Positions 1,800 through 23,477 of a DNA stretch of 64,000 bases are shown here, one piece after another. The stretch comes from Phreatobacter stygius (lineage in GTDB: Bacteria; Pseudomonadota; Alphaproteobacteria; Rhizobiales; Phreatobacteraceae). The translations under genes were made by a program, and so were the position numbers. A model generated the notes under the pieces. It saw only the letters and a list, made by a program, of their open reading frames with translations, was not told the origin of the DNA and made no database searches. The stretch's first letter is position 1, and the number at the start of each line of letters is the position of its first letter. The stretch spans positions 3,981,001 to 4,045,000 of the forward strand of contig NZ_CP039690.1 in the NCBI RefSeq assembly GCF_005144885.1. The letters are read 5' to 3'.

Positions 1800-2325
1800 G
1801 GCTTTGTGCAGTCTCGACGGGTTGTGGACGGAGAGGCCGGATCGCGGAATGCGTGCGTGGAACTCTATGCCTGCCTGTGAGCGATGCCAATTGCCGTGCT
1901 GCGGTCAGGCACGGCGGCCTGCGATCCCGGCTGGTCAAAAATCCTGTCCAGCTCGTGGGCTGTCCGGCGCGCCATCGGCCACCGCTCATTCGACGTTTTG
2001 CAACTGCGCGATTGCTTTGGAACGCACAGGCGGCTGGGCCAGCGGAGTGACCGCTTCAGACTGTCTTCGTTAAGTTATAGTCGTTCCAAAAACCACATTT
2101 TGCCAATAATAATACAATCTATCGGCGGTTGGCGAGTACAGTTTAGAATTCTTGAAAACAGTGAAGATATAAGATCGATGCTGCCACTCTGAAAGTATAA
2201 TAATTATAAAGTGAAACGTTGTCGCAGGGGCAAAATAATCCATGATATTTGCCAATTAGTTCGGTTTGCATGATTGTTTCTAGGTCAAGCGCCATGATAG
2301 TAGGCCGTGCCGACAGGAGATCGCC
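1800..2325. other. Divergent intergenic region, AT-rich toward the receptor gene
   Basis: No convincing gene is present. The left part (1800-2045) has the usual high GC content. From about 2070 to 2290 the composition becomes strikingly AT-rich, as expected for a regulated promoter region upstream of a siderophore receptor. An imperfect palindrome resembling an Irr box lies at 2142-2158, and an AGGAGA ribosome-binding site sits just before the receptor start. Confidence 0.6.
2142..2158 (+). promoter_or_regulatory. Possible iron-response (Irr/ICE-like) operator
   Basis: The sequence TTTAGAATTCTTGAAAA has a perfect left half of the rhizobial iron-control element (TTTAGAA) and, after a 3-base spacer, a right half matching TTCTAAA at 5 of 7 positions. 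It lies about 170 bases upstream of a siderophore receptor start, which makes iron control plausible. A single degenerate match in an AT-rich stretch can arise by chance. Confidence 0.3.
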
Positions 2326-4536
2326 ATGGCCCCAGCACGTTCCCGAAAGACTTATCCGATTGCGGCCATTCTGCTTCTGTCGCTCAGCGACAACGTGCTT
2401 GCACAAACATCGTCTTCTTCTGCCCCCGTGGAGCTTCCTCCCATCGAGGTGCAGGCCCAGACCGCGCCTTCACTGCCGCCGACAGGCACGATCGGGCAGC
2501 CGCCGGCGCCCTATGCGGGCGGCCAGGTCGGAACGGGCGCGCGCCTCGGCATGCTGGGCAATCGCTCGTTCCTGACGACGCCGTTCAACGTGACGGGTTA
2601 CACGGGAAAACTGATTGCAGACCAGCAGGCCAGGACGATTGCCGACGTCGTGCAGAATGACCCGTCGGTGCGCAACGACGTTTCGCCGTTCAGCGAGCGC
2701 GATGCGTTTTTCATTCGCGGCTTCTCGGTCGTTGCTCTCGACACCGCCTTCGACAGCTTGTTCTACATCGCCAATCCGCGCCGCAGCTTCACCGAAGGGA
2801 TCGAGCGCGTCGAAATCCTGAAAGGGCCCAGTGCCTTTCTCAGCGGCGGCCTCGCTCGTATCGGCGGCACGATCAACCTTGTCCCCAAGCGCGCCACCGA
2901 CGAGCCGCTGACGCGGGTCACGACATCGTTCGCCAGCCGGGGGCAATTCGGAACGCATATTGACCTCGGCCGCCGCTTCGGCCCGTCCAACGAGTGGGGT
3001 GTGCGCCTGAACACCTCCTATCGCGGCGGCGCGACGCCGTTGGACAACAATGCCATCGAAGTCGGCGTCGTCGCGCTGGGCCTCGACTATCGCGGCGAGC
3101 GGTTCCGCGCGTCGCTGGATCTGACCCATACCAGGCAGGATGTCCGGGCGCCGACGTCGCTGTTCAATTCAATTGCGCCGAATATCCCTATTCCCAGAGC
3201 GCCGAACAACAGCCTCAACACAGCGAGCCCGCTCGAATACATCGACAGCCGGTACAACATGGCCGCGGGCCGGGTCGAGTACGACCTCCTGCCGCAGGTG
3301 ACGGTCTACGCCGCGGGCGGCGTCAGCCGCTACTACGAGGACTTCCTCCAGTCATCTTATCGGATCACGAGCGCGACCGGGCAGGCGACCAATACGCTGG
3401 CCATTCAGCCCCAGGAAATTCAGGGATTGACCGGAGAGGTGGGTTTGCGCGCCCAGTTCGAAACCGGCTTTATCGGTCATCAGTTGAACGTCTCGGCCGT
3501 CCAGGCGGACAACCGGAACTTCCGCGGCGGTTTCAATCCGATCGCCCTGCCGAGCTGGGTCACCAACATCTACAATCCGATCTACCTGCCGCGGGGCTCG
3601 TTCCCGACGATGGCGTTGCCTCGCTCCAATCAACTGCCTCTGTTCACGCAGCTCACCGCGCGCAGCGTGGCGATCTCAGACACCTTGTCCCTGGGCGGAG
3701 ACCGCCTCCAGCTGACGCTGGGCGGGCGTTATCAGTCGATCGATCTGCGGAGCTATGTCACCCGTCCGGGGCCGACGCTCGGCGCGTTGGCGACCAGCTA
3801 CCAGGAGGGCAAGTTTACCCCCGCCGTCGCCGTCGTGTTCCGTCCGTTCGAGCGTCTCTCGATTTACGGCAACTATGTCGAGGCTCTCACCGAAGGACCG
3901 ACCGCTCCGCCGACGGCAGCCAATGCCAATACGGTCTTCGCCCCCACCGTCAACAAGCAGACGGAGATCGGCGTCAAATACGATCTCGGCACGGTCGCGT
4001 TCACGGCTTCGCTGTTCGAGATCCGGCAGCCGAACGCCTTCACCGATCCTGCCACCAACCTGTTTTCCGTCAGCGGCCTGCAGCGCAACCGCGGCGCCGA
4101 ACTCGTTGTGTTCGGCGAGCCCATGCCCGGCGTGCGGCTGCTGGGCGGCGTGACGTTCATCAATGCGGAACTGGCCAATACGCTGGGGGGCCGGTTCAAC
4201 GGAAACACCGCTCCCGGTGTCCCCGCCGTCGCGGTCAACCTCTACGGCGAATACGATGTGCCGTCATGGCTGGCGCCGGGCCTCACCCTGACCGGCCGCG
4301 TCATCTATTCGGGCAAACAATTCTACGACCAGGCCAATACGCAATCGATCCCGGCCTGGACCCGTTTCGACGCCGGCCTGCGCTACGTCTTCCAAAGGCC
4401 GGCGGGCAAGGACGTGACCATCAGGGTTGCCGTCGAGAACGTCTTGAACACGTCCTATTGGGCCACGGCCTCCAGAGGCTTCTTGAGCGTGGGCGCCCCG
4501 CGCACATTCATGGTCTCGACAACCTTCGACTTCTGA
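2326..4536 (+). CDS. TonB-dependent siderophore receptor
   Basis: A 736-residue outer-membrane receptor. The signal peptide covers residues 1-26 (ends DNVLA-Q). A possible TonB box follows (IEVQAQ near residue 43). The plug domain (about 80-200) carries DVVQNDPSVRND, the RDAFFIRGF block and GIERVEILKGPSAFLSGG, all diagnostic of FhuE/FpvA-type receptors. The rest is a beta-barrel ending in Phe (STTFDF), the usual outer-membrane insertion signal. An AGGAGA ribosome-binding site lies 6 bases before the ATG. It heads the iron locus and is followed by an ABC importer and a catecholate/citrate siderophore pathway, so ferric petrobactin-like chelates are the likely cargo (inference). Confidence 0.93.
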   Translation: MAPARSRKTYPIAAILLLSLSDNVLAQTSSSSAPVELPPIEVQAQTAPSLPPTGTIGQPPAPYAGGQVGTGARLGMLGNRSFLTTPFNVTGYTGKLIADQQARTIADVVQNDPSVRNDVSPFSERDAFFIRGFSVVALDTAFDSLFYIANPRRSFTEGIERVEILKGPSAFLSGGLARIGGTINLVPKRATDEPLTRVTTSFASRGQFGTHIDLGRRFGPSNEWGVRLNTSYRGGATPLDNNAIEVGVVALGLDYRGERFRASLDLTHTRQDVRAPTSLFNSIAPNIPIPRAPNNSLNTASPLEYIDSRYNMAAGRVEYDLLPQVTVYAAGGVSRYYEDFLQSSYRITSATGQATNTLAIQPQEIQGLTGEVGLRAQFETGFIGHQLNVSAVQADNRNFRGGFNPIALPSWVTNIYNPIYLPRGSFPTMALPRSNQLPLFTQLTARSVAISDTLSLGGDRLQLTLGGRYQSIDLRSYVTRPGPTLGALATSYQEGKFTPAVAVVFRPFERLSIYGNYVEALTEGPTAPPTAANANTVFAPTVNKQTEIGVKYDLGTVAFTASLFEIRQPNAFTDPATNLFSVSGLQRNRGAELVVFGEPMPGVRLLGGVTFINAELANTLGGRFNGNTAPGVPAVAVNLYGEYDVPSWLAPGLTLTGRVIYSGKQFYDQANTQSIPAWTRFDAGLRYVFQRPAGKDVTIRVAVENVLNTSYWATASRGFLSVGAPRTFMVSTTFDF

Positions 4537-4722
4537 CCTGCCGGTTCGCGTGTTGCCGGGCCGTTGCTTCCAACAGTCCGGCGCCCTCCTTCAGCTTCGA
4601 ATTCTTGCTTCGTTTCGAACTCCTGTTCAGTTCCGGAATCCTGGCCGATGACGATGCTCACCAGAAATCCGCTTGATCGCATCGAGACCGACACGTCCGT
4701 TTCGAACCGTCGGCTCGTCGGT

Positions 4723-5841
4723 ATGGCCATGAGCTGCCTTCGCCGCGTTGCTGCGGTGCTGTTGCTCGCCGCCGTGCCGGCAGTGGCTTCGGCGGCGGAG
4801 GTCGTCGACCTCGCGGGGCGGCGGCTTCAGATCCCTGATCGGGTCGAGCGCATCATCATCGGCGAGGGGCGCTACATCCCCACGCTCGCGATCCTCGACC
4901 GGGAGAACCCGATCGGCCGTCTCGTCGGGATGTTGGGCGACTACGAGGACATCGACCCGGCCAACTATGCCCGTTACCGCGCCCGCTTTCCTGATATCGA
5001 CAAGGTCCAGCGCATCGGCCGCAGCGCGCGCGACAGCTTCAGCGTCGAGCAGGCCATCGCCGCCCGGCCCCAGGTGGCGATCTTCGGCCTCGGCGGTCAT
5101 GGACCGGGAACACGGTCGACGGAGGTGATCCGCGCCCTCGAGGCCGCCGGCGTCGTCATCGTCTTCATCGATTTCCGCAGCGATCCGCTCGTCAACACGC
5201 CGCGTTCGCTCGAACTGCTCGGCAAGGTTCTCGGCCAGGAGGCCCGGGCTGCCGAATTCCTGTCGGCCTGGCGCGCGGCCCTCGCGACCGTCACCGAGCG
5301 CCTCGCGCGCGAAAAACCGACCCTGACCCGCGTCTTCGTCGAGAGCCGCGTGGGTCTCGGCAGAGGCTGCTGCGAGACCATGACCCGCGGCATGATGGGG
5401 CGCTTCGTCACCGCCGCCGGCGGCGTCAACGTGGCCGACGCCATCCTGCCCGGCGAGGCCGGCGTGGTCAGCCTCGAATGGCTCATCGCCAATCCGCCTG
5501 ACGTCTATATCGGCACTGCGATCGGCAGCGGCCTGCGTGACGAGGCATCGTGGCTGGCCTTGGGCGCTGGTGTCACCGAGGCGGCGGCCCGTACGCGCCT
5601 TGCCGCCTCGCTCGCCCGGCCGGGCATTGCCGACCTCCCCGCCATCAGGGAAGGGCGGGCGCACGCCATCTGGCATCACTTTTACAATTCGCCCTTTAAT
5701 GTCGCCGCGGTTCAGGCCTTCGCGAAATGGCTGCATCCCGCGCTTTTCGCAGATCTCGACCCCGACGGCCTGCTCGCCGACTTCCACAGCCGGTTCCAGC
5801 CGTTCCCGCTCGACGGGGCCTACTGGGTGAGCCGCAAATGA
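4723..5841 (+). CDS. Iron-siderophore ABC transporter substrate-binding protein
   Basis: A periplasmic binding protein of the FecB/TroA-like (Peripla_BP_2) type. Starting at ATG 4723 gives a compact signal peptide (about 25 residues, cleavage near ASA-AE) and a 372-residue protein; an upstream ATG at 4648 with a CGGAA ribosome-binding site would add 25 residues and is a real alternative. The mature start EVVDLAGRRLQIPDRVERII is the classic first strand of these proteins, followed by RPQVAIFGLGGHG and a C-terminal lobe containing NPPDVYIGTA. It lies after the receptor and is joined by an ATGA overlap (5838) to a mini-ORF that leads into the permease. Role inferred: delivery of the ferric siderophore to the FecCD-type permease. 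Confidence 0.87.
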   Translation: MAMSCLRRVAAVLLLAAVPAVASAAEVVDLAGRRLQIPDRVERIIIGEGRYIPTLAILDRENPIGRLVGMLGDYEDIDPANYARYRARFPDIDKVQRIGRSARDSFSVEQAIAARPQVAIFGLGGHGPGTRSTEVIRALEAAGVVIVFIDFRSDPLVNTPRSLELLGKVLGQEARAAEFLSAWRAALATVTERLAREKPTLTRVFVESRVGLGRGCCETMTRGMMGRFVTAAGGVNVADAILPGEAGVVSLEWLIANPPDVYIGTAIGSGLRDEASWLALGAGVTEAAARTRLAASLARPGIADLPAIREGRAHAIWHHFYNSPFNVAAVQAFAKWLHPALFADLDPDGLLADFHSRFQPFPLDGAYWVSRK

Positions 5842-5969
5842 CCGGGACCCATGCGGCGCTTCCCGATGTCGAATTCGATCCGCAGGGCTGCCGCACGTGC
5901 TGCCCCCACGGGTCTCGCCCCTCGGGATTGCGCGCCGCCGCAGTCTGCGCGCGCGGCGCGCACGCATGA
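5838..5969 (+). CDS. 43-residue Cys-containing ORF coupled to both neighbours
   Basis: This short reading frame begins in an ATGA overlap with the stop of the binding-protein gene and ends in another ATGA overlap with the permease start at 5966. A ribosome reading the operon could therefore pass through it. The peptide (MTGTHAALPDVEFDPQGCRT... then CCPHG) has four Cys residues at 18, 21, 22 and 37 (C-x2-C-C then one more) and no membrane segment. I do not recognise a family. It could be a genuine small protein, a translational coupling device, or simply the spacer between two genes. Codon use is ordinary for the window. Confidence 0.4.
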   Translation: MTGTHAALPDVEFDPQGCRTCCPHGSRPSGLRAAAVCARGAHA

Positions 5970-7108
5970 CGGAACCAGCGCATGACGCGGCCCGGACAAT
6001 TCTCGGCGGTGCTACCCGTCATGGCGGGGTAGCTGTGAGCCCGCCGCCGTCGCACATCGCGCTTTCCGAAGCCGGCGAGCGTCTGCTGACGCTCTATGCG
6101 GCCCAGCTCCGCAAACGGGTACTCATTGTCGTCGCCCTGTTGGCTGCTGCCGTCATGGGCCTCTTCCTCGACCTGACGACCGGTCCTTCCGGGCTGCCGT
6201 TCAGCCAGACCTGGGCCGCCCTGACCGGGGCTCCCGAGGCTGGCCGCGCGGCCGAGGTTATCGTCTGGCACGTCCGCCTGCCGATCGCCGTGATGGCGAT
6301 CCTCGTCGGGATCGCGCTCTCGCTCGCCGGCGCAGAGATGCAGACCATCCTCGACAATCCGCTCGCCAGCCCCTTCACCCTCGGCGTCTCGGCGGCCGCG
6401 TCCGTTGGCGCGGCGCCGACGATCGTGCTCGGCTTGAGCCTGCCCTATCTGCCTGCCGGCCTCGCCGTGGCGGGCAACGCCTTTCTGTTCGCCTTCGGAT
6501 CGGTGCTCCTGCTCCAGGCGTTGGCGCGCCGGAGCGAGGGCGGGCCCTATCTGCTGGTGCTCTTCGGGGTCGGGCTCGTCTTTGCCTTCAACGCGCTGCT
6601 CGCCCTGGTGCAGTTCCTTGGATCGGCGGAAGCGCTCCAGGAACTCGCCTTCTGGACGATGGGCAGCCTCGCGCGTGCCGATTGGACGGCGATCGCGATC
6701 CTGGCCTCGGTGGTTGCAATCATCGTTCCCTGCTCGTTCGCCGCTTCCAGCAGCCTGAACGCGCTGCGCCTGGGCAACGACCGGGCGGCGAGCTACGGCA
6801 TCGACGTTGCGCGCCTGCGCTTCCTGTCGCTGCTGCGGTCGAGCCTGCTCGCCGCGACGGCCGTCGCCTTCGTCGGCACAATCGGTTTCGTCGGGCTCGT
6901 CGGGCCTCATATTGCCCGCATGCTGATCGGCGAGGACCACCGCTTCTTCCTGCCGACTGCAGCGTTGACGGGTGCCGTGGTCATGTCGTTTGCCTCGGTC
7001 GCCAGCAAGCTGGTCGTCACCGGCGCGCTGCTGCCGGTGGGGATCGTCACATCGCTGGTCGGACTGCCGGTCTTCTTCATCCTGATCATGCGGCAGCGGC
7101 GCAGATGA
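5966..7108 (+). CDS. Iron-siderophore ABC transporter permease, FecCD/BtuC family
   Basis: A multi-spanning inner-membrane protein of 380 residues from ATG 5966; a GTG at 6034 would remove a poorly hydrophobic N-terminus and is also possible. Family hallmarks include RLPIAVMAILVGIALSLAGA (the first coupling region), LASPFTLGVSAAASVGAA, and a C-terminal GFVGLVGPHIAR block followed by RMLIGEDHRFFLPTAAL, matching FecC/FecD/FepD. The stop overlaps an ATG (7105) inside a 68-bp tandem duplication. Only one permease gene is present, so the channel is probably a homodimer. Confidence 0.92.
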   Translation: MTEPAHDAARTILGGATRHGGVAVSPPPSHIALSEAGERLLTLYAAQLRKRVLIVVALLAAAVMGLFLDLTTGPSGLPFSQTWAALTGAPEAGRAAEVIVWHVRLPIAVMAILVGIALSLAGAEMQTILDNPLASPFTLGVSAAASVGAAPTIVLGLSLPYLPAGLAVAGNAFLFAFGSVLLLQALARRSEGGPYLLVLFGVGLVFAFNALLALVQFLGSAEALQELAFWTMGSLARADWTAIAILASVVAIIVPCSFAASSSLNALRLGNDRAASYGIDVARLRFLSLLRSSLLAATAVAFVGTIGFVGLVGPHIARMLIGEDHRFFLPTAALTGAVVMSFASVASKLVVTGALLPVGIVTSLVGLPVFFILIMRQRRR

Positions 7109-7220
7109 CGAACGCTCCGGAAGCACTCGTGATCGGCGATCTGAGCGTCGGCATCATGCGGCAGCGGCGCAGATGACGAACGCTCCGGAAGCACTCGTGA
7201 TCGGCGATCTGAGCGTCGGC
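7085..7220 (+). repeat. Exact 68-bp tandem duplication across permease/ATPase junction
   Basis: Bases 7085-7152 and 7153-7220 are identical; the bases on either side differ (g/c before, a/t after), so the unit is exactly 68 bp. It holds the last seven codons of the permease, its stop codon, and the first sixteen codons of the ATPase. The first copy ends the permease; the second starts the working ATPase. Because 68 is not a multiple of three, no fused protein forms; instead a 23-codon mini-ORF (7105-7176) is created, bounded by ATGA overlaps on both sides. Confidence 0.97.
7105..7176 (+). pseudogene. Duplicated 5' end of the ATPase gene, 23-codon mini-ORF
   Basis: From the ATG overlapping the permease stop, the reading frame encodes the first sixteen residues of the ATPase (MTNAPEALVIGDLSVG) and then runs into the duplicated permease tail (IMRQRRR), stopping at TGA 7174-7176. 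That stop overlaps the ATG of the full-length ATPase at 7173. It is a by-product of the tandem duplication and probably now serves only to carry ribosomes to the second start. Confidence 0.7.
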
Positions 7221-7994
7221 TATCCCGGACGGCCGGTCGTCGAGGGCTTCAGTCTCGCGCCGATCGCGCCGGGCAGCGTGACCGCCATTGTCGGTCCGAA
7301 CGCCGCCGGCAAGTCGACCTTGCTGCGCGGTCTCGCAGGCCTCTTGCCCGTCACCGGCTCGATACGGATCGGCCTGGTCGAACTTGCCGGTGCCGTCAGG
7401 CGCGAGCGGGCGCGCTATGTCGGCTTCATGCCCCAGAGCCTTCCGGCCGACGCACGGCTGAACGTCTTGGAAGCGGTGATCGCGGCGCTCGCGGTCAGTG
7501 CGTTCGACGGTTCCGCCCGGTCGCGGGTGGAGACACGGCGGCAGGCCATGGCCGTCCTGGAGCGGCTCAGCATCGGAGAGTTGGCGCTCGAGCCACTCGA
7601 TGCTCTCTCGGGCGGGCAACGCCAGCTCGTCAGCCTTGCTCAGGCCATCATACGGGAACCGGTCATCCTGCTGCTGGACGAGCCGACGAGCGCGCTTGAT
7701 CTCCGCCATCAGGTGCAGGTGATGCGGATCGTCCGCGATCTCGCCGATGGCGGGGTCATCGTGGTCGCGGTCCTGCACGATCTCGCGCTCGCGGCGCGTT
7801 GGGCTGATCGGGTGGCCGTGCTCGGTCGCGGCGCACTCGTTGCCGAGGGAGCGCCGCAGGCCGTGCTGACGCCACGATTGCTCGCCGACGTCTACGGCAT
7901 TGTCGCCCGGGTGGAGCCGTGCTCGGCCGGCACCTTGCAGATCATCGTCGACGGGCTGGATGAGGACAGGAGTGCCCGGCAATGGCCGACATGA
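7173..7994 (+). CDS. Iron-siderophore ABC transporter ATP-binding protein
   Basis: A 273-residue cytoplasmic ATPase of the FecE/FepC type. Walker A is GPNAAGKST (about residue 39), the ABC signature is LSGGQRQLVSLAQA and Walker B is VILLLDEPTSALD, with the switch His in VAVLHDLALAAR. It completes the importer with the FecCD permease and the binding protein. The start is the second of two identical candidate starts created by the 68-bp duplication; only this copy reads into the full protein. The last gene of the uptake block, it is followed by a 411-bp gap before the biosynthesis genes. Confidence 0.95.
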   Translation: MTNAPEALVIGDLSVGYPGRPVVEGFSLAPIAPGSVTAIVGPNAAGKSTLLRGLAGLLPVTGSIRIGLVELAGAVRRERARYVGFMPQSLPADARLNVLEAVIAALAVSAFDGSARSRVETRRQAMAVLERLSIGELALEPLDALSGGQRQLVSLAQAIIREPVILLLDEPTSALDLRHQVQVMRIVRDLADGGVIVVAVLHDLALAARWADRVAVLGRGALVAEGAPQAVLTPRLLADVYGIVARVEPCSAGTLQIIVDGLDEDRSARQWPT

Positions 7995-8405
7995 TCGCAC
8001 GATCTGTTGATCACGCCCCGGTCAACGGGTCGCTGCCGGGTCAATCTGGCGGGATAAAGGACCGCTCGGCCGGATCTCCAACGATTGACAAGCGGCCTCG
8101 AATACGCAAAAATATGAGTAATATCAGTACTTTATATCAAATCTAAACTGTACGATTCCAAATTGCGAGTTGGAAGGCGTTCATGCATTTTTTCCCTGAA
8201 GGATGGCGTCTCGATATGGCGCGCGGACGGGCCGGCTCCGCTGGTCGCAGAGCGCTTCCGCCGCTCGTCCGGTCCATGCCGTTGAGGCGCGCCGGCGCAA
8301 CATTGGCCCGCCGCGGACGGGCCACGGGGCAGGCCTCTTTGCTCTAGCTGCAGCGTCTCGCGGCAAATCCGGCCGCGACCAAAGTGCGAACGAGGTTCGG
8401 TCGTC
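7995..8405. other. Intergenic region upstream of the siderophore synthesis genes
   Basis: No gene is supported here. A short AT-rich patch (about 8098-8168) stands out against GC-rich flanks and is the best place for the promoter of the biosynthetic operon; it contains loosely palindromic AT-rich elements but no operator I can name with confidence. A GAGG ribosome-binding site lies about a dozen bases before the ATG at 8406. I see no clear terminator for the ATPase gene, so read-through from the uptake genes is possible. Confidence 0.5.
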
Positions 8406-10193
8406 ATGCCACCATCGTCCCAACAGGTTGCCGAGGCGGCAGCCTTCCGCAGTTTCGCCAACGGCTATCTGCGTGAGATCGATCCCGGCATCCGGGTCCA
8501 TCACGCCTTGCCGGACGGCCCTCCCGCAGCTTGCGTGGAATGGAACCTGCGCAGGCAGCGCGCTGTGATCCGCGCCGAGATCCTGTCTCCTTCGTTGTGC
8601 GGCCCGCACGGCTTCGGTCGTCTGTGGACCCGCCATCTCCACGAACCGCGCTGGCGCCGCCTCGCGCCGATGCGGGCGATTCAGGAACTCCTCGGCGAGG
8701 CCTATGCCCGGGTGGACGCCGGCGGCGGCGACGGCGCGCGCGAGCACGAGCTGGAACTGCTGGGGCGAATTCTCGACAGCTATCGCGAGACGGCTCGCCA
8801 ACTCGATCTCGCCGCGCGGGAGACAGGCGAGGATACGAGCTTCATTGGTGCCGAGCGCTCCCTCGTTTTCGGCCATTGGCTGCACCCGACGCCCAAGAGC
8901 CGGCAGGGCCTCACTGCCTGGCAAGCGCGCGTCTACGCTCCCGAAGAGGAGGGCGCGTTCCAGCTCGCCGTGTTCGCCGTCGATGCCGGCATCGTCCGCC
9001 ACGGCTCGGCAGTGCCCCGTTCGGCGCTCGAGATCGCGCAGGAGCTCCTCGGATCCGACGCCACGCGGCTGCCGCTGCATCCCGGCGAGATCGCTCTCCC
9101 GATGCATCCGCTCCAGGCCGACGCGCTGATGCTGGAACCGCATGTCGCGGCGATGGTGGATGCGGGCCTCGTTCGGCGCCTCGGCGCGGCGGGCCCCCGC
9201 TTCACCGCCACCTCGTCACTGCGGACCGTCTATGCGCCGGACAGTCCCTGGATGGCGAAATTCTCCCTTCCCGTCACCATCACGAATTCGCTGCGCGTGA
9301 ACCGGATCGCCGAACTCGAGGCGGGCGTTGCAATGGCGCGGCTGCTCGGGCGCAGCCGCTTCGGATCGCGCCATCCGGCCTTCCGGATCCTCTTTGACCC
9401 GGCCTATCTCACACTGCGCTGTCCCGGCCGCGAGGAAAGTGGCTTTGAGACGGTGCTGCGCGAGAATCCCTTCCGCGACGGCGCCGAGCGCGGCGTCGCA
9501 ACCGTCGCGGCGCTGACCGCCGAGCCCGTTCCGGGCAGGCGTTCCCGGCTCGAGACGCTCCTGCGCCGTGTCTGCCCCGGCAATGCGGACGCGGTTTCGC
9601 GCGCCGCGCGGATATGGTTCGGCCTCTATCTCGACTGCATGCTCGAGCCGCTCGTCTCGCTTTATGACGAGTACGGCATCGCGCTCGAGGCGCATCAGCA
9701 GAACGCGCTGCTCGACGTCGCCGACGGTTGGCCGCGCCGGGGGTTCTACCGCGACAACCAGGGCTTCTACCTCTCCGAGGCCGCCCGGCCTCAGCTTCTG
9801 CGTGAGGCCCCCGAGACGGCCAACCTCGCCTCGCTCTACTTCGCGGACGGCGAGATCCGCCGCCGCCTCGCCTATTATCTCGTGGTCAACCAGATCTTCT
9901 CCGTGGTGTCTCGCATGGGCCATGACGGGCTGGTCCGGGAAGAGATCCTCATCGACGACCTGGCCCGCCGGCTGGAGGCGATGGCGGGCCGCATGACGGG
10001 CGCGGGCCGGGCCTTCGCTCGCTCGATTCTGGACGGGCCGACGATCTGCACCAAGGCCAATTTGCGCGTCCGCCTGTCGGATCGCGACGAGTTGGCCTCG
10101 GGCGACGGAACCGACAACTACATGGACATGCCGAATCCGCTCGACGTCCGGGCGCGGGCTTGCGGCGAGGCCAACCGTGCCCTTGCCTCTTGA
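8406..10193 (+). CDS. asbA: NIS siderophore synthetase, AsbA-like (IucA/IucC family)
   Basis: A 595-residue NRPS-independent siderophore synthetase, the usual length of the family (B. anthracis AsbA is about 600). Visible motifs are the paired His-Pro block HPGEIALPMHP (His225, His234), the ATP-binding loop SSLRT (270-274) with KFSLPVTITNSLR (Lys285), the active-site EAHQQN (428-433), and the C-terminal FhuF-like end with TKANLRVRL (549-557). Enzymes of this type adenylate a citrate carboxylate and condense it with an amine, spermidine in petrobactin. The AsbA rather than AsbB assignment rests on gene order. The 3' end overlaps the next gene by 17 bases. Confidence 0.88.
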   Translation: MPPSSQQVAEAAAFRSFANGYLREIDPGIRVHHALPDGPPAACVEWNLRRQRAVIRAEILSPSLCGPHGFGRLWTRHLHEPRWRRLAPMRAIQELLGEAYARVDAGGGDGAREHELELLGRILDSYRETARQLDLAARETGEDTSFIGAERSLVFGHWLHPTPKSRQGLTAWQARVYAPEEEGAFQLAVFAVDAGIVRHGSAVPRSALEIAQELLGSDATRLPLHPGEIALPMHPLQADALMLEPHVAAMVDAGLVRRLGAAGPRFTATSSLRTVYAPDSPWMAKFSLPVTITNSLRVNRIAELEAGVAMARLLGRSRFGSRHPAFRILFDPAYLTLRCPGREESGFETVLRENPFRDGAERGVATVAALTAEPVPGRRSRLETLLRRVCPGNADAVSRAARIWFGLYLDCMLEPLVSLYDEYGIALEAHQQNALLDVADGWPRRGFYRDNQGFYLSEAARPQLLREAPETANLASLYFADGEIRRRLAYYLVVNQIFSVVSRMGHDGLVREEILIDDLARRLEAMAGRMTGAGRAFARSILDGPTICTKANLRVRLSDRDELASGDGTDNYMDMPNPLDVRARACGEANRALAS

Positions 10194-13167
10194 AACCGTG
10201 CACCGGCCGGAGGAACGCGTCCTGCGGCAACTGGCGGAGGCGGCCCTCTTCGAGGGCATGGCCGATCTCGACGCCGCGTGCGCAGATGGTCCCGGGCCGT
10301 TGGAATGGCGCATCGGGACGCGCCGCTTCCGTGCCACCGGTGCGACTGGTCCCTTCGGCCGCCTCCGCCTCGAACCTTCGACGATCGAGATGGCGGAGCC
10401 GGACGGATCCTGGCGCGCCGCCGATCTCACCGGCTTCGCGAAGGCCCTTCCCGCCACGCCGGAGCGCAGGGCGCAATTGCTGGCGGAGCTCCGGCAGACG
10501 GTCGAACTCTGCCGTTGGAACGCGAAGACCCTTGTTCCGCCGGACCGCCGCGCTCTTCCCTTTGCCCAGCTCGACTCCGCGCTCTGGGAAGGCCATCCCT
10601 ACCATCCCTGTTTCAAGGCGCGTACCGGCTTCAGCCTGGCGGATCACCGCCGCTATGGGCCGGAATGCGCCAAGCCGTTTCGGCTGCAATGGCTGGCCGT
10701 CCGCCGGGACGCGATCTCGGTCTCGCTGCCGAGCGGCGAGGTCGAATTCTGGCGGGCGGAGCTCGGCGAGGAACGGGACCTCCTGGCGCGCCGCCTCGGC
10801 GAAGCAGGCCTTTCCTTCGAGACCCACGCTCTCCTGCCCGTCCATCCCTGGCAGATGCAGCGTCTCCGGGAGGGGCCGCTGCGGCCCTGGCTGGCCGAGC
10901 GTCGTGCCGTCGCGCTCGGCGCCGCCGGCGCGCGCTACTTTGCCAGCCAGTCCCTGCGCACGCTGCACAATCTCGATGACCCGCACGCCAGCAGCGTGAA
11001 GCTCGCCATGAGCCTCGTCAGCACGTCGAGCCTGCGAAACCTCGACCCGCATTTCGTGCTGACGGGGCCGGCGCTTTCGGAATGGCTGGCGGGGCTTGTC
11101 GCGGGCGACCCGCTGTTGCGCGGCCGCTGCCGGATGGACATCCTGCGTGAATATGCGTCCGCGCTCGTCGACCCTGCCGGGCCGCTGGCGGGACAACTCG
11201 GCGCGCTCTGGCGCGAGGCGCCGAGACTGGCCCCGGGCGAGGCTGCGGTCCCCTTCAACGCGCTGATGATGCGGGAGGCGGACGGCGCAGCCTTCGTCTC
11301 CCCCTGGCTCACGCGCCACGGGCTCCAGGCCTGGCTCGACCGCCTCGTGGAGGTCGCGGTGCTGCCGGTCTGGCACCTCCTGGTGGCCCATGGCGTCGCT
11401 CTCGAGGCGCATGGCCAGAACATGATCCTCGTCCATCGCGGCGGATGGCCGGAGCGGGTGATCCTCCGCGACTTCCACGAAAGTGCCGAATACGCGCCGG
11501 ACTTCGTATCCGACCCCGCGCGGGTGCCGGATTTCGCCGCCATCGACCCCGCCCATGGCGGCCCGGTGGACGATCGTTTCCACGCCATGCGTTCGGCCTC
11601 CGTGTTGGCCGAGCTGGTGACCGACAGCCTGTTCGTCTTCAGCCTTTCCGAGACCACCCACCTCCTGCATCGGCTGCATGGGCTGGACGAGACGGACTTC
11701 TGGCGCCGGCTCGGCCGCCGCCTGCTGCGCCATGCGACGGAGCACGGCCTGGAAAACCGGCTGGCCCGGCTTCGCATCGATGCGCCTCAACTGCGGGTCG
11801 AGGCGCTTCTGTCGCGAAAGCTCGGACTGGACGAGGCGCGGTGCAGCCGCCTCGTGGCCAACGCCTTCCTTCCCCCTGAACAGCCTTCGGGAGACGTCAT
11901 GATCGAGATCGACGAGCAGATGATGACTGCGGCGGAGATGGATGCCGCCATCCGGCGTGTCGGGACGCGAGCTCGCCTGCAGGGCGGCAGAGGCGAGCGC
12001 GTCGCCGCGCGCTTGCGCGACACCACTGAATGCCTTGCCTTCATTCTCGCGGCGCGCCAGCTCGGCGTGACGCTCCTGCCGATCCATCCGGCGCTGCCCG
12101 ATGATGGCGCGCGACGGCTCGCCGAGCGCGCCGGCTGCCACCGTCTGTTCCTGGACGATCTTGACGGCGAGATCCTGACGGGAGCCGCCCCTCCGGTTCC
12201 CGGTGAAGGGCAGCTGCTCCAGATGAGCTCCGGCACCACGGGCGATCCCAAATGCATCGCGCGCAATTGGAGCGCCGTGGAACGCGAGGTCGAAAGCTAT
12301 GTCTCGGCCTTCACCGAGCCGGAGGGGATGACGCCCGTCATAGCCTGCCCGATCACCCATTCCTACGGGCTGATCTGCGGGCTGTTCGTCGGCCTGCGTC
12401 GCAGCCAGCCGCCGGTGGTGCTGGACCACACCAATCCGAAATATTTGCTCCGGCGCCTGCGCGAGATCGATCGTCCGCTGCTCTATACCTCGCCGGCCAT
12501 GCTGCACACGCTCGCCCGGCTGCTCCCCGAAGGCGAGCGCATGCACGCCGCGATGACCTCCGGCACACTCCTGCCCGGACCCTGGTTCGACGCCATCCGC
12601 AGCCGCGTCGTCCACTTCTTCCAGCAATATGGCTGCTCGGAGGTCGGCTGCATCGCGGTGAACCCGGACCTGCGTCAGCCCGACGCCATTGGCCGTTCCC
12701 TGCCTCACCATCGCGTCCTGGCCGGGGAGAGCGCCGAACGGCCGGCCGAAATCGTCGTCGAGAGTGAAGCCGGGCAGGTTCGTACGGCCGATCTCGGCTA
12801 TGCGCGCCCCGACGGCATGCTGATCTTCGTCTCGCGCATGGACGACACGATCAACGTGTCGGGCCTCAACGTCTATCCCGGCGAGGTGGAGGACGTCGTG
12901 ATGGCGATGCCCGGCGTCACCGACGCCGTGGCCTTCGCCCGGTCCGATCCCTTCGCGGGCGAGCGGGTGACGCTCCTGTTCAGCGCCGAGGCGCCGGTGC
13001 CGCCGCGCGCGCTGCAGGATTGGTGCCGCCGCTGGCTCGCCGGTCATCAGGTGCCCGGCGAGGCGGTGCAGGTGAGGGCGATCCCGCGCCAGGCCAACGG
13101 CAAGATCTCACGCCGCGAGGTCGCCGAGCGTTATCGCAACGGATTGCTGGCGGAGGTCGTGGCATGA
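10177..13167 (+). CDS. Fused NIS synthetase (AsbB-like) and aryl-AMP ligase (AsbC-like)
   Basis: A continuous 996-residue frame starting at GTG 10177. Residues 1-574 are a second IucA/IucC synthetase: HPWQ (223-226), SLRT (259-262), Lys275, EAHGQN (410-415). Residues about 575-996 are an ANL-superfamily ligase: the phosphate-binding loop SSGTTGDPK (684-692), a GCSEVG motif (819-824), SGLNVYPGE (895-903) and the C-terminal catalytic Lys in NGKIS (Lys976). In petrobactin synthesis these steps are separate proteins: AsbB joins a second polyamine arm to citrate, AsbC activates 3,4-dihydroxybenzoate. The second part has its own Met575 with a ribosome-binding site and gives 422 residues, close to free AsbC (about 412). 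The next gene starts in an ATGA overlap. Confidence 0.87.
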   Translation: MPLPLETVHRPEERVLRQLAEAALFEGMADLDAACADGPGPLEWRIGTRRFRATGATGPFGRLRLEPSTIEMAEPDGSWRAADLTGFAKALPATPERRAQLLAELRQTVELCRWNAKTLVPPDRRALPFAQLDSALWEGHPYHPCFKARTGFSLADHRRYGPECAKPFRLQWLAVRRDAISVSLPSGEVEFWRAELGEERDLLARRLGEAGLSFETHALLPVHPWQMQRLREGPLRPWLAERRAVALGAAGARYFASQSLRTLHNLDDPHASSVKLAMSLVSTSSLRNLDPHFVLTGPALSEWLAGLVAGDPLLRGRCRMDILREYASALVDPAGPLAGQLGALWREAPRLAPGEAAVPFNALMMREADGAAFVSPWLTRHGLQAWLDRLVEVAVLPVWHLLVAHGVALEAHGQNMILVHRGGWPERVILRDFHESAEYAPDFVSDPARVPDFAAIDPAHGGPVDDRFHAMRSASVLAELVTDSLFVFSLSETTHLLHRLHGLDETDFWRRLGRRLLRHATEHGLENRLARLRIDAPQLRVEALLSRKLGLDEARCSRLVANAFLPPEQPSGDVMIEIDEQMMTAAEMDAAIRRVGTRARLQGGRGERVAARLRDTTECLAFILAARQLGVTLLPIHPALPDDGARRLAERAGCHRLFLDDLDGEILTGAAPPVPGEGQLLQMSSGTTGDPKCIARNWSAVEREVESYVSAFTEPEGMTPVIACPITHSYGLICGLFVGLRRSQPPVVLDHTNPKYLLRRLREIDRPLLYTSPAMLHTLARLLPEGERMHAAMTSGTLLPGPWFDAIRSRVVHFFQQYGCSEVGCIAVNPDLRQPDAIGRSLPHHRVLAGESAERPAEIVVESEAGQVRTADLGYARPDGMLIFVSRMDDTINVSGLNVYPGEVEDVVMAMPGVTDAVAFARSDPFAGERVTLLFSAEAPVPPRALQDWCRRWLAGHQVPGEAVQVRAIPRQANGKISRREVAERYRNGLLAEVVA
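11889..11901 (+). promoter_or_regulatory. Internal ribosome-binding site and start at the AsbB/AsbC fusion point
   Basis: GGGAGA at 11889-11894 lies 4 bases before ATG 11899, which is codon 575 of the fused gene and exactly where an independent AsbC-like protein would begin. Either the fusion arose by loss of an upstream stop while the old start survived, or a free ligase is still made by internal initiation. Confidence 0.5.
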
Positions 13168-14480
13168 CCCGCGAGGGCATCATCGAGGCCGTCGGCACTG
13201 TCCTGCGCGAGGAGATGCGTCATCCCCATCTCGACCTCTTCGGCCCGCAGGCACGACTGAACGAGGACCTCTACATCGATTCCGTCCAGCTCCTTCAGCT
13301 GATCCTGGCGCTGGAGATGAACCTTGGTCTGCCCGTATCGGAAGAGGCGTTCAGCCGCCAGGATCTTTCCACCGTCGCCGATCTCGCGGCGATCCTCGCG
13401 CCGGACGCAGAACGGGAGCAGCCGGCGGCCGAGGCCACCGGGCCCGAGACGCCGTCGGAAGGCGTCCATGGCGAAATGCCCTACGATCTGAAGATCCATT
13501 GCTTCGTCAGCTGCGTCTGCGCCGGGCTGAAGACGCGCGGCATAGACCATCGCCCCTTCTACTTCCTGATCTGGGATGCCGAGTTTGCGATCACCGACGG
13601 ATTCCGGCTCGCCTACCACTCGGACGCCATGGACCACGAGTCGTTCCGCTACTGGTTCGAGCGGCTCTACGGCGTGCCGCTTTCGGCCTGGTACGACCAT
13701 TCCCGCTCCAAGGACGAGAACGTCGCAACCCTCCTCGAAATCCTCGAGCGCCGCACGCCGGACGAATGCGTGATGGTGATGCTCGACATGTTCCATCTGC
13801 CGGAGCGCGAGAACAAGTTTAACCAGAACCCTTTCCCGCACTATCTGTTGCTGGAACTCACCGAAGATCCCGCCGTCTGGCAGGTGCTCGACCCCGACTT
13901 CCGTTGGGAAGGTTTGATCGAGCGCGACAAGCTGCTGAACGCGATCCGCCAGCCCAGCGTCGCCGGCGGCTACCGGTTCGATCCCTCGATCGCCCATGCG
14001 CCTGTTGACGCGGATCTCGCCGCCTTCTTCACGGCCTGTTTCCGCCCCAACGCCAATCCCCTGATCGATGCGGCGCGTGCCATCGTCACGGCCCATGCCG
14101 AGGGACAGGGCGGCCTTGCCCTTGGCGATGTCGGCGAGGCGCTGCGCGAACTGCCTGTCATCACCATTCGCAAATGGGCCTACGAGCACGGCTTCGCCTT
14201 CTTCTGGCGGGCCCTGCGCTGGCCGGATAGCGAATTTCAACGCATCTGCGACGAGATCGAGATGCTGGTGAACGGCCTGACGGCCTTGCACTACGCCATC
14301 TTGAAGCTCGCCAAGACCGGGGATGCGGCACTGGTCGCTCCGGTTCTCAAGAAGCTCGACGAGCTCGACGCGGCGGAGTTCTCGATCAAGCGGCAGCTCG
14401 CCGCAGCCTTCGAGGCCTGGCGAACCATGAGCCCGAGCCTCCGCCAAGCGGGGCGCGCCCACGAAAGGCTCTCCGCATGA
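13164..14480 (+). CDS. Fused aryl carrier protein (AsbD-like) and AsbE-like transferase
   Basis: A 438-residue protein starting in an ATGA overlap with the ligase. Residues 1-85 form a phosphopantetheine carrier domain with the attachment site IDSVQLLQLI (Ser40). After a Pro/Glu-rich linker (about 88-104), residues 105-438 match the petrobactin AsbE type (DUF6005) by my recognition: DLKIHCFVSCVCAGLK, RGIDHRPFYFLIWDAEFAI and a DMFHLPERENKFNQNPFPHY block. Free AsbD is about 91 and AsbE about 327 residues, so both parts look full length. Known role: AsbD is loaded with 3,4-dihydroxybenzoyl by AsbC, and AsbE transfers it to a spermidine amine. An internal Met105 marks the likely old AsbE start. 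Confidence 0.83.
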   Translation: MTREGIIEAVGTVLREEMRHPHLDLFGPQARLNEDLYIDSVQLLQLILALEMNLGLPVSEEAFSRQDLSTVADLAAILAPDAEREQPAAEATGPETPSEGVHGEMPYDLKIHCFVSCVCAGLKTRGIDHRPFYFLIWDAEFAITDGFRLAYHSDAMDHESFRYWFERLYGVPLSAWYDHSRSKDENVATLLEILERRTPDECVMVMLDMFHLPERENKFNQNPFPHYLLLELTEDPAVWQVLDPDFRWEGLIERDKLLNAIRQPSVAGGYRFDPSIAHAPVDADLAAFFTACFRPNANPLIDAARAIVTAHAEGQGGLALGDVGEALRELPVITIRKWAYEHGFAFFWRALRWPDSEFQRICDEIEMLVNGLTALHYAILKLAKTGDAALVAPVLKKLDELDAAEFSIKRQLAAAFEAWRTMSPSLRQAGRAHERLSA

Positions 14481-15319
14481 GAATCTCGCTCTGCACCATC
14501 AGCTTCCGGCATCACCTCCTGTCGATCGGCGAGATCGCGCGGTTCGCCCGCGGCAGTGGCTTCGACGGCATCGAGCTCTGGGGCGTCCACGCGCGCAATC
14601 TCAGCGGCGGCTATCACGCCGAGTGGCTCGCCGCCCATGGCCTGCGCGTGCCCATGCTGAGCGACTACCTGCCGCTGGACGCGCCGCGCGATAGCCTGAC
14701 CGAGCGCATGGCGGACTTCTGCCGGCTGGCGCGCAACTGGCGGGCTCCGCGGCTGCGCACTTTCGCCGGCACGAAGGGGAGTGCCGTGACCTCGCCCGAG
14801 GAGCGCGCGCATGTCGTGAGCGGCCTGCGGATGGCGGCCGGCTATCTCGCCAACCACGGCCTGCGGCTCCTGGTGGAGACGCATCCCGGCACCCTGGCCG
14901 ACAACACCGCTTCGCTCCTGCGCCTGCTCGAAGAGGTCGACCACCCGGCCCTCAAGGTCAACTTCGACGCGCTCCATGTCTGGGAAGGCGGCGACGATCT
15001 GCTGGCCGCCCATGACCGCCTCGCTGATCATATCGACTACTATCACCTCAAGAACGTGCGGGATCGGTCCGACCTCGCCGTCTTCGAGCCCGCCAACGTC
15101 TATGCCGCGTCCGGGCGGCGCGACGGCATGACGAGCCTGCTCGAGGGCACGCTCGACTATGGTCCGTTCCTGGAGAGCCTGCGTCCGAATGCCGAGGCCT
15201 CACTCGAATGGTTCGGCGATGCCTGCTTCTCCATCCTGCCGGCCGACCTGTCCAAGGTCCGCAACATCGCCGCCAAACGCCACGACGATATGGCCTTCCG
15301 CATCGGTGTCGCGGGGTGA
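14477..15319 (+). CDS. asbF: 3-dehydroshikimate dehydratase, AsbF-like
   Basis: A 280-residue sugar-phosphate isomerase-type TIM barrel, the same length as B. anthracis AsbF. It starts in an ATGA overlap with the AsbDE gene. The candidate metal ligands are Glu134 (VETHPG), Asp164 (NFDALH), His190 (YYHLKN) and Glu244 (LEWFGD), with spacing close to that of AsbF. AsbF converts 3-dehydroshikimate to 3,4-dihydroxybenzoate, the catechol of petrobactin. The same activity also feeds protocatechuate catabolism (QuiC type), but the operon position directly behind AsbD/E argues for siderophore synthesis. Confidence 0.88.
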   Translation: MRISLCTISFRHHLLSIGEIARFARGSGFDGIELWGVHARNLSGGYHAEWLAAHGLRVPMLSDYLPLDAPRDSLTERMADFCRLARNWRAPRLRTFAGTKGSAVTSPEERAHVVSGLRMAAGYLANHGLRLLVETHPGTLADNTASLLRLLEEVDHPALKVNFDALHVWEGGDDLLAAHDRLADHIDYYHLKNVRDRSDLAVFEPANVYAASGRRDGMTSLLEGTLDYGPFLESLRPNAEASLEWFGDACFSILPADLSKVRNIAAKRHDDMAFRIGVAG

Positions 15320-15396: not shown

Positions 15397-15675
15397 ATGC
15401 TCCAAAGCCGCGCTGTGATCAGCACCCCCAATGCCAGCCGCATCCTTCAACAGCTATGCAAGCACTGGGCACATAAATTCGAGACCGGATTCACGACAAC
15501 GGCCGGCCGGATCATGCTGCCCCTCGGCGAAACGCGGCTCGCCGCCGACGCCGAGGCCTTGACGATCGACCTGGCGGCCGAGGACGCCGACAAGCTTTCC
15601 GGTCTGCGCGATGTCGTCACGCGCCATGTCGAGCGCTTCGCGTTTCGCGAAACGCTCGATTTCGTGTGGTCCTAG
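15397..15675 (+). CDS. DUF2218 family protein
   Basis: A 92-residue soluble protein starting at ATG 15397 with a GAGGAA ribosome-binding site. It carries the DUF2218 signature: an N-terminal QLCKHWAHKF block and a C-terminal DVVTRHVERFAFRETLDFVW block. The biochemical function is unknown; members often sit in iron or siderophore loci, and this one follows AsbF after 77 bases on the same strand, so it is probably part of the operon. It has no signal peptide and no metal motif beyond scattered His residues. Confidence 0.75.
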   Translation: MLQSRAVISTPNASRILQQLCKHWAHKFETGFTTTAGRIMLPLGETRLAADAEALTIDLAAEDADKLSGLRDVVTRHVERFAFRETLDFVWS

Positions 15676-15769: not shown

Positions 15770-16270
15770 ATGGATCTGAAGATTCGGGCCATGCGCGCCG
15801 AGGATGCGCCGGAGCTATTCGAAATCTACAATCAGCCGGCTTTCCGCTCCGGAACGCTCGCGCTGCCTTACGAATCGTTCGAAGCGGTCAAGAAATGGTC
15901 GGAGCCCCGGTCTCCGCGTGACCTGCATCTTTCGGCAGAATTGAACAGTCGGGTTGTGGGTGCGGCGGCCCTGCGCCCCTTTTACGGACGGCGTGCGCAC
16001 GCCGCCGAATTTTGGATCGCCGTGCACGAAGATTTTGCGGGAAATGGCATAGGGTCTCGCCTGCTCGCCGCCATCATCGATACTTCGGACAATTGGTTGA
16101 ATATACACCGAATTGAGATGACCGTATTTACCGACAACGAAAGAGCCATTGCTCTCTACAAAAAATTCGGGTTTGAAATCGAGGGTACGCACAAGGCCGC
16201 GACATTTCGAAATGGCGTTTTTGCCGACGCCTACTGCATGGCGCGCTTGCGGCCGTCGAACCAGCCTTGA
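15770..16270 (+). CDS. GNAT family N-acetyltransferase
   Basis: A 166-residue acetyltransferase. The acetyl-CoA loop is in VHEDFAGNGIGSRLLAAII (residues about 83-101; the R/Q-x-x-G-x-G/A motif is represented by FAGNGIG), and the C-terminal half has the standard NERAIALYKKFGFEIEGTHK block of RimJ/RimL-like and PhnO-like enzymes. The acceptor is unknown. Being the last gene of the iron locus it may modify the siderophore or a precursor, but an unrelated amine is as likely. The second half of the gene is visibly AT-richer than its neighbours, hinting at separate acquisition. Confidence 0.8.
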   Translation: MDLKIRAMRAEDAPELFEIYNQPAFRSGTLALPYESFEAVKKWSEPRSPRDLHLSAELNSRVVGAAALRPFYGRRAHAAEFWIAVHEDFAGNGIGSRLLAAIIDTSDNWLNIHRIEMTVFTDNERAIALYKKFGFEIEGTHKAATFRNGVFADAYCMARLRPSNQP

Positions 16271-16796
16271 GAGATCTGTCGCGTAGCGACATGGCTTCCC
16301 CGGACAGGGACCGGCGACCTCACGCCGCCAGTGCCAGGCGGGCGGGCTTCAGGACTGAAAACGACATCGAGCAAAAACTCCGCGCCTCACGTTCCCAGTG
16401 CTGACGGAACACGGTGACAGCCAAGGCGGGCAGGGTGAGTTTCGACCGGATTTGGCTACGCCCGTTGGCGTTGGCTGCGCTGACGGCGAGGCGAAATCCG
16501 GCAGAAACCTCAAAGGCCGTCCTGAAGGCCGGCTGAGGCGAGCAATCGTCTCGCGCCGGCTGGTCGCAGCGACGCACGCCACACTGGGGATGGTCCGTGG
16601 CGCCACCTTGACGCGTCAGGGAAGAACTGTTTTGTATCGAGCTTCAATACGATCGTTTTATTTCTTGAGGGGTGGAAATTGGAGTACCGGATTTCGGTCC
16701 CGCCTCGTGCAATACGAGGGGGAGACCGGCGCCAGCCCCCCTTGCTGCCGAAAATCTGCACATGACACTGTGCGCGCCCTATCCGTGGAGTTGCTG
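16271..16796. other. Intergenic region with a signal-peptide gene remnant
   Basis: There is no intact gene. On the minus strand at 16320-16367 lies a 15-codon remnant of a signal-peptide gene related to the one at the left edge of the window, and the DNA upstream of it (to about 16540) shares short blocks with the corresponding DNA at 229-400. The right part (about 16560-16796) leads to the amidohydrolase start, which has a GGAG ribosome-binding site at 16787-16790. Confidence 0.5.
16320..16367 (-). pseudogene. Remnant of small secreted protein gene
   Basis: From ATG 16367 the frame reads MSFSVLKPARLALAA and then stops. It lines up with MSFFPLMPARFALAV of the gene at 1-228, and 29 bases around the start (16339-16367, against 200-228) match with only five mismatches. 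It looks like the promoter-proximal end of a second copy whose coding part was lost or cut by a stop codon. Confidence 0.55.
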
Positions 16797-18434: not shown

Positions 18435-18439
18435 CGTCC

Positions 18440-19381
18440 ATGGGTGCCCACATCCTCCAGCGGGTCATTCTGTCGGTCCCGGTCCTGTTCGGCGTGCTTT
18501 TGCTCGGTTTCATGCTGCTGCAACTGGTGCCCGGCGATGTCGCCATGGTCATCGGCGGACCGCAGGCGACCCCCGAAGTGCTCGAACAGATCCGCCAGGA
18601 AATGGGCCTCAACCGGCCGCTCGTGGTGCAGTTCGGGCTCTATATCGGGCGCGTGCTGCAAGGCGATCTCGGCTATTCCATGATCAACAACACGCCGGTC
18701 ATCTCCGAGCTCGCCGATGCCATCGGCCCGACCGCCGAACTGGTCGTCGCCTGCCTCATCTGGTCGGTGCCGATCGGCATCGCGCTCGGCACCGTGGCCG
18801 CGGTCTATCGCGGCAAGCTCCTCGATCGGCTGATCATCGCTATTTCGGTCACCGGCGTCTCGACGCCGGTCTTCTTCATTGGCCTGATGCTGATCATGTG
18901 GCTCGGCTATCACTGGGAACTGTTCCCGTTCCTCGGCCGCGAAGGACCGCTGTGGACGCTCCAGGGCCTGTCGCATATCGCGCTGCCGGCGCTCACCCTC
19001 GGCCTGACCTTCATCGGTCCGGTGGCGCGCATGACGCGCACCGCCGCATTGGAGGTGTTGAACGCCGATTATGTGCGCACGGCCCGCGCCAAGGGCCTGA
19101 CGGAACGGGTGGTCATCATTCACCACGTGCTGCGCAACGCATTGATCCCGGTGGTCACCCTGATCGGCCTGCAGGCGGGCTTCCTGCTCGGCGGTGCCGT
19201 CGTCACCGAAACGATCTTCTCCTGGCCCGGCGTCGGGCGGCTGGCGGTCGGCGCGATCCTGTCGCGTGACCTGCCGATGGCCCAGGGCTCGATCCTGGTC
19301 CTCGCGGTCTCCTTCATCGTGATCAACCTGATCGTCGATCTGCTCTATGGCGTGCTCGATCCGAGGGTTGGTAAGCGATGA
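18440..19381 (+). CDS. Peptide/nickel-type ABC transporter permease (DppB-like)
   Basis: A 313-residue inner-membrane protein of the OppB/DppB family. It begins MGAHILQRVILSVPVLFGVL, the typical first helix, followed by the external loop ending VPGDVAMVIGG, and contains the coupling (EAA) region DYVRTARAKGLTERVVIIHHVLRNALIPV. ATG 18440 is chosen over an in-frame GTG at 18422, which would only add a polar tail. The stop overlaps the next permease by ATGA. Confidence 0.92.
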   Translation: MGAHILQRVILSVPVLFGVLLLGFMLLQLVPGDVAMVIGGPQATPEVLEQIRQEMGLNRPLVVQFGLYIGRVLQGDLGYSMINNTPVISELADAIGPTAELVVACLIWSVPIGIALGTVAAVYRGKLLDRLIIAISVTGVSTPVFFIGLMLIMWLGYHWELFPFLGREGPLWTLQGLSHIALPALTLGLTFIGPVARMTRTAALEVLNADYVRTARAKGLTERVVIIHHVLRNALIPVVTLIGLQAGFLLGGAVVTETIFSWPGVGRLAVGAILSRDLPMAQGSILVLAVSFIVINLIVDLLYGVLDPRVGKR

Positions 19382-20268: not shown

Positions 20269-20308
20269 CCCCAAGCAGAGAAAATTCCGGTTTCAGAGGA
20301 GAGACACG

Positions 20309-21904: not shown

Positions 21905-22018
21905 TCCCAGGCAACTTCGGCCGCCGGGCGTCACCACGCCCGGCGGCCTCTCGACCGTTGCAAGACCGTGCATCTCGAAGGGCTGCAAAGCCAAAGCCTG
22001 CCAACAGAAGAGACCGTC

Positions 22019-23473: not shown

Positions 23474-23477
23474 TTTC

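Follow-up and report, generated by a model that had tools for sequence, protein, structure and literature searches.

What does the siderophore-type gene cluster of the alphaproteobacterium Phreatobacter stygius make, and which metal would its product serve? We analysed a window of 64,000 nucleotides from this genome (contig NZ_CP039690.1, positions 3,981,001 to 4,045,000 of the forward strand), in which four genes at window positions 8406 to 15319 had been read, in an earlier annotation made from the sequence alone (the original prediction), as a condensed pathway for petrobactin or a close 3,4-catecholate/citrate siderophore. Our results point to a more specific answer. With a probability of about 0.75, this is a rhodopetrobactin/methylolanthanin-type locus for a nonribosomal peptide synthetase-independent siderophore (NIS), most likely making a rhodopetrobactin B-like iron siderophore.

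Gene content, order and known counterparts

Searches with Pfam, NCBIfam and PDB recovered the asb/mll-type set complete and together at this locus, i.e. two IucA/IucC synthetases, an AMP ligase, a carrier protein, a DUF6005 protein and an AsbF-like dehydratase, all encoded on the plus strand. Gene A (8406..10193, ATG start) specifies an MllA/AsbA-like NIS synthetase, predicted to form a citrate-amine amide bond, with IucA_IucC (2.7e-50) and FhuF (4.9e-38) domains and IucA (5jm7, 4e-43) as its PDB match. Gene BC (10177..13167, GTG start) corresponds to MllBC and fuses an AsbB-like NIS synthetase to an AsbC-like aryl-AMP ligase; its domains are IucA_IucC (9.6e-65), FhuF (9.9e-26), AMP-binding (2.9e-19) and AMP-binding_C (1.4e-8), and its B part matched AsbB (3to3, 2.9e-86). 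Gene DE (13164..14480, ATG start, 438 amino acids) corresponds to MllDE, an aryl carrier protein (PP-binding, 4e-5) followed by an AsbE/DUF6005 papain-like acyltransferase domain (DUF6005, 7e-140). The carrier part has the Asp39-Ser40 pair and reached 6.2e-19 and 68 bits with the NCBIfam AsbD model, under the model cut-off of 100. Gene F (14477..15319, ATG start) encodes an MllF/AsbF-like 3-dehydroshikimate dehydratase, the predicted source of 3,4-dihydroxybenzoate, with a xylose-isomerase-like TIM barrel (1.1e-24) and AsbF as its best PDB match (3dx5, 6.7e-65; runner-up at 1.9e-6). The domain series, the asb order and the overlap of each gene with the next were thus as the original prediction had described them (A/BC 17 nt, BC/DE 4 nt, DE/F 4 nt, all between co-directional neighbours), and E and F, whose family it had singled out as decisive, both group with petrobactin-type families. 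The whole 7.35 Mb genome has two IucA_IucC matches, both inside the cluster.

Directly 3' of F lie two further plus-strand genes that the original prediction had left unmentioned. The first (15397..15675) encodes an MllG-like DUF2218 protein (PF09981, 5.4e-32), and the second, H (15770..16270), an MllH-like GNAT acetyltransferase for which we predict acetylation of homospermidine at its central amine. A GNAT acetyltransferase and a DUF2218 protein next to A-F constitute the marker of the methylolanthanin/rhodopetrobactin subtype, and both are present here.

We compared this arrangement with three known systems. All six enzyme functions of the petrobactin locus asbABCDEF recur in the window in the same order, and in Bacillus these are six separate genes. 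Two fusions have been described as the difference of the mll locus from asb (PMC11317620). In that description, META1p4132-4137 of M. extorquens AM1 are mllA, mllBC, mllDE, mllF, mllG (DUF2218) and mllH (GNAT), and the window has A, BC, DE, F, DUF2218 and GNAT genes in the same order as this mll/mlu locus, as well as a TonB receptor within the locus. Unlike AM1, the window has genes for a binding protein, a permease and an ATPase upstream, neither a sigma/anti-sigma pair nor a DUF4142 gene was found in the 18 window frames scanned (483-24521), and the window genome gave no match to a pyrroloquinoline quinone (PQQ) alcohol dehydrogenase or to pqqC. The rhodopetrobactin locus of Rhodopseudomonas palustris is likewise listed with homologues of A, B, C, DE, F, DUF2218 and GNAT (PMC11317620, Table 1), and its product has the acetyl-homospermidine scaffold that we predict for the window. 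It differs, as tabulated there, in its separate locus tags for B and C and in having the DUF2218, receptor and GNAT tags away from the A-F run.

Related loci and phylogeny

Searches for DUF6005 gave 3 positive genomes among 385 of the class and 5 among 101 of the order, with the window genome counted in both cases, and 12 among 82 of another family. Neither of the two other searched species of the window's genus had it, which might mean that the cluster arrived recently and has kept no role, and hence that it is silent or decaying. We consider this very improbable, given that all ten frames from the receptor through H are open and that E and F retain the residues that were examined. In addition, the same ten genes are carried, at 89-95% identity, by L037, an unclassified Hyphomicrobiales metagenome-assembled genome in which the receptor is cut at the locus edge.

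For the comparison of whole loci, the best 80 of 284 relatives from a scan of named genomes were combined with two unnamed loci, and because only the best 80 were kept, counts among these 82 loci are not a census. D and E were fused in 81/82 related loci and B and C in 13/82 (one not scorable). The four-gene layout, which the original prediction had set against the six separate genes of Bacillus anthracis, is already published as mllA-mllBC-mllDE-mllF (PMC11317620). The BC fusions sit in the window's clade (9/18 loci) and in four Shinella loci, and at least three changes of the BC state are needed on the tree. In the Shinella clusters (L041, L046, L049 and L055) the fusion is apparently independent of that in the window's clade.

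In a tree of concatenated A, B, C and E segments, which was a quick one without a mixture model, carried long-branch warnings and excluded L070, the window fell into a 19-row clade with a Shimodaira-Hasegawa-like approximate likelihood ratio test (SH-aLRT) value of 100. This clade holds Methylobacteriaceae, two Aureimonas and one Boseaceae isolate, and within it the window groups with L037 (91% across these four segments). Identity of A to the clade members was 73-93% in 16 loci and 65% in L038, the gene being absent from the truncated L025. A DUF2218 relative was found in 15/18 clade loci (62-75% in 14, 91% in L037), and H in 15 of the 18 as well, at 72-95% identity. Outside the clade, H occurred in one of 64 loci (L077, Rhodopseudomonas infernalis, 77%). 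Since DUF2218 relatives also adjoin many other asb-type clusters, H is the telling marker of the methylolanthanin/rhodopetrobactin subtype.

As a separate observation, F was unmatched within the fetched locus in 22 of the 82 related clusters, some of which are cut by contig ends. Clusters without an F match include L026, L032, L035, L036, L039, L063, L068 and L077; downstream of the clusters in L032, L063, L068 and L077, the ten frames that we scanned encode importer, FecR or acetyltransferase proteins. Five Methylobacterium clusters among those without an F match fall into one subclade, in which B and C are also unfused.

Predicted polyamine arms, aromatic acid and acyl transfer

Petrobactin proper consists of citrate, two spermidines and two 3,4-dihydroxybenzoates, and such a product would suit a cluster in which A-F fit asb-type families and F keeps all 13 AsbF positions that were checked. 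The polyamine genes of the window genome point in another direction. A homospermidine synthase was identified at the gene level (around G000:C1:2416726, L102; 4plp, E 7.1e-258), and the genome gave no Spermine_synth (SpeE-type) match in a search in which 11 of 14 control genomes were positive. For NspC, nothing in the window genome exceeded the cut-off; the one weak hit fell on a diaminopimelate decarboxylase, which reaches 480 bits as LysA. Petrobactin is reported to contain spermidine and rhodopetrobactin homospermidine (PMC7857480). Moreover, H, which is listed for the mll and rhodopetrobactin loci (PMC11317620), lacks a counterpart among asbA-F, none of which is an acetyltransferase gene. 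The homospermidine synthase, the missing SpeE-type and NspC matches and the acetyltransferase H together favour acetyl-homospermidine arms as the predicted building blocks, as in rhodopetrobactin B and methylolanthanin. Petrobactin proper is accordingly an improbable product in our estimate; of the two products named in the original prediction, it is the close 3,4-catecholate/citrate siderophore that holds up.

The aromatic acid would come from F. Thirteen positions chosen from the AsbF alignment, including Glu142, His144, Asp172, His198, Lys200, Tyr217 and Glu253, were identical in 61/61 F sequences. The roles of these residues in AsbF are background here, the computed result being their conservation. 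Because all 13 are kept, F should make 3,4-dihydroxybenzoate, and we predict it to be an AsbF-type source of this acid. The roles of AsbC, AsbD and AsbE in petrobactin formation are likewise background, with family membership as the computed part.

The E domain offers a view of the acyl transfer step. Its best structural match was CtaG (PDB 9qvj and relatives), at ∼10% sequence identity and TM-scores of 0.41-0.57. The putative catalytic residues of E are Cys113, His226 and Asp243/245 (within DE, 13164..14480), of which Cys113, His226 and Asp243 were unchanged in 83/83 sequences. His226 and Asp243 were paired with H128 and D144 of CtaG by order, spacing and invariance rather than by superposed coordinates, and in two CcbD rows (7yn1 and 7yn2) the range offset fails to align Cys113 with Cys19. 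With a papain-like fold and a catalytic Cys and His, as judged from these structural matches, E would belong with the papain-like carrier-protein acyltransferases CtaG, CcbD and AziU3. CtaG acts in closthioamide biosynthesis, where a hydroxybenzoate transfer has been proposed for it (PMC6772006); its acceptor is tri-beta-alanine on a carrier, whereas the predicted acceptor of E is a polyamine. A non-exhaustive literature search turned up no publication linking DUF6005/AsbE with CtaG. The link would provide a testable mechanism for a step in petrobactin-type biosynthesis that has received little attention, in which a thiol acyltransferase carries the hydroxybenzoyl group from the carrier to the polyamine.

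Taken together, the proposed pathway would run as follows. F would convert 3-dehydroshikimate into 3,4-dihydroxybenzoate, which the C part of BC would adenylate and load onto the carrier part of DE. From the carrier, the papain-like E part would then transfer the aroyl group, by means of Cys-His-Asp, onto one of the terminal amines of homospermidine. The central amine would be acetylated by H, a step that we place here tentatively in the order of events, and A and B would couple a pair of these arms to carboxylate groups of a single citrate. Finally, the receptor (2326) and the importer (4564-7994) would return the ferric complex to the cell.

Probable metal, possible iron control and uptake genes

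Methylolanthanin is described as citrate with two central-amine-acetylated homospermidines and two 4-hydroxybenzoates (PMC11317620). A methylolanthanin-like compound, with the same scaffold as predicted here, two 4-hydroxybenzoates and a role in lanthanide acquisition, would agree with the A-BC-DE-F-G-H layout, which equals mll of AM1, and with the proteins of the Methylobacterium/Methylorubrum loci in the clade, which are ∼62-85% identical to those of the window (best tblastn segment). The PQQ enzymes argue against it. TIGR03075 (PQQ alcohol dehydrogenase) had no match in the window genome. Its score was over the cut-off in 14/14 Methylobacteriaceae of the clade and in none of the five other clade genomes (window, L037, L027, L034 and L038), with weaker matches in L034 (E 1.7e-41) and L038 (E 3.6e-25); this split between Methylobacteriaceae and the others holds inside the clade only. 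No pqqC match was found in the window genome in a run in which no control was positive; separately, six of seven related genomes were positive, L037 being the single exception. In the light of these missing matches, an iron siderophore is favoured over a lanthanophore. The lack of PQQ enzymes lowers the probability of a lanthanophore and leaves the kinship of the cluster intact, and iron is the simplest metal to assume, no lanthanide-type alcohol dehydrogenase having been found that would call for lanthanides. Published data on related systems point the same way. The PA1 cluster is reported to yield rhodopetrobactin B, and more of it under iron limitation, with methylolanthanin reported as undetected in that strain (PMC13251462). 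Rhodopetrobactin B is also reported to bind Fe3+ more strongly than methylolanthanin, and both seem to precipitate lanthanides (PMC12780827). We thus regard a methylolanthanin-like product as unlikely.

We also looked for signs of iron control. Two palindromes resembling the iron control element (ICE, or Irr box) were found, scored by mismatches to the ICE consensus: one 5' of the receptor (2142..2158, two mismatches) that is suggestive, and one 5' of A (8131..8147, three mismatches) that is weak. These were the two matches in the 64 kb, compared with 0.12 expected, and 1/100 shuffles reached two. Clade-wide, we scanned 33 upstream regions, each 500 bases long, of which the 18 clade loci supplied 31 and the window two; five of 36 gene cases were dropped, either because the gene was missing (receptor and A of L025, receptor of L027) or because of the locus edge (receptors of L024 and L037). 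ICE-like sites were present in 9/33 regions, and 139 permuted motifs gave at most six (mean 0.67). A wider scan gave ten matches in the 18 clade loci, seven of them 5' of the receptor, A or H, three elsewhere, and eight in the other 62 named loci, four of them 5' of A. As sequence motifs, these sites may lend weak support to iron control.

Several observations weigh against a rhodopetrobactin B-like iron siderophore. ICE-like sites were absent from 24/33 regions, and L037 has none with up to four mismatches in the 500 bases 5' of A. In addition, published work describes Irr as a repressor of its targets when iron is depleted (PMC3413700), which makes it no simple fit to a siderophore promoter. 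Outside the clade, TIGR03075 was over the cut-off in seven of nine cluster-bearing genomes tested, and inside it L027, L034 and L038 have pqqC without TIGR03075 over the cut-off, so that absence of PQQ enzymes is no rule for mll-type clusters. The polyamine evidence comes from searches for homospermidine synthase, Spermine_synth and NspC. Lastly, the sequence does not reveal which aromatic acid is used. AM1 is reported with a 4-hydroxybenzoate compound and PA1 with a 3,4-dihydroxybenzoate compound in spite of highly similar clusters (PMC13251462), which means that the product does not follow from gene content; mllF is listed for AM1 (PMC11317620, Table 1).

The similar clusters of AM1 and PA1 are reported with different compounds, linked to lanthanides in one case and to iron in the other (PMC13251462). 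One tentative scenario, which we hold to be possible but somewhat doubtful, is that the mll-type pathway was an iron system at its root, with lanthanide use arising in only part of the Methylobacteriaceae branch and the window, which has its own ABC importer and no PQQ genes found, representing an iron-only comparison. In this scenario, the pathway would also operate in alphaproteobacteria without lanthanide-type alcohol dehydrogenases, such as the five genomes of the window's clade. A bolder proposal, in which the strain makes a 4-hydroxybenzoate compound for an undescribed metal or purpose, is less likely than this scenario. With its one-contig genome, the same layout and no PQQ alcohol dehydrogenase or pqqC found, this organism would make a clean comparison strain.

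The receptor and importer that the original prediction had placed directly upstream were both recovered at 2326-7994, on the plus strand. They comprise a TonB-dependent siderophore receptor (2326..4536) with FemA and BauA as best PDB matches, a periplasmic siderophore-binding protein (4564..5841, PF01497) whose nearest solved structure is 6b2x and whose start is uncertain (TTG as listed), a FecCD-type importer permease (5897..7108, start likewise uncertain, GTG as listed) and an importer ATPase assigned by domain search (7173..7994). A receptor relative was found in 16/18 clade loci, at 61-73% identity in 15 of them and at 94% in L037, whose locus starts inside the receptor gene. The binding protein was matched in one of the 82 related loci, L037 alone; other PF01497 binding proteins were seen in three further loci inspected (L032, L063 and L077). 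At the DNA level, the similarity between the window and L037 extends, with short breaks, from the interior of the receptor gene through the cluster as far as window position 24209.

The flanks hold genes of other kinds. A serine hydrolase gene of the Beta-lactamase family (PF00144) lies 5' of the receptor on the minus strand (483-1799). On the 3' side of the cluster, 16398-24521 encodes two amidohydrolases together with a permease, a binding protein and an ATPase that would belong to an oligopeptide-type ABC transporter, and the stretch 16542-24209 is common to the window and L037 at 91% DNA identity.

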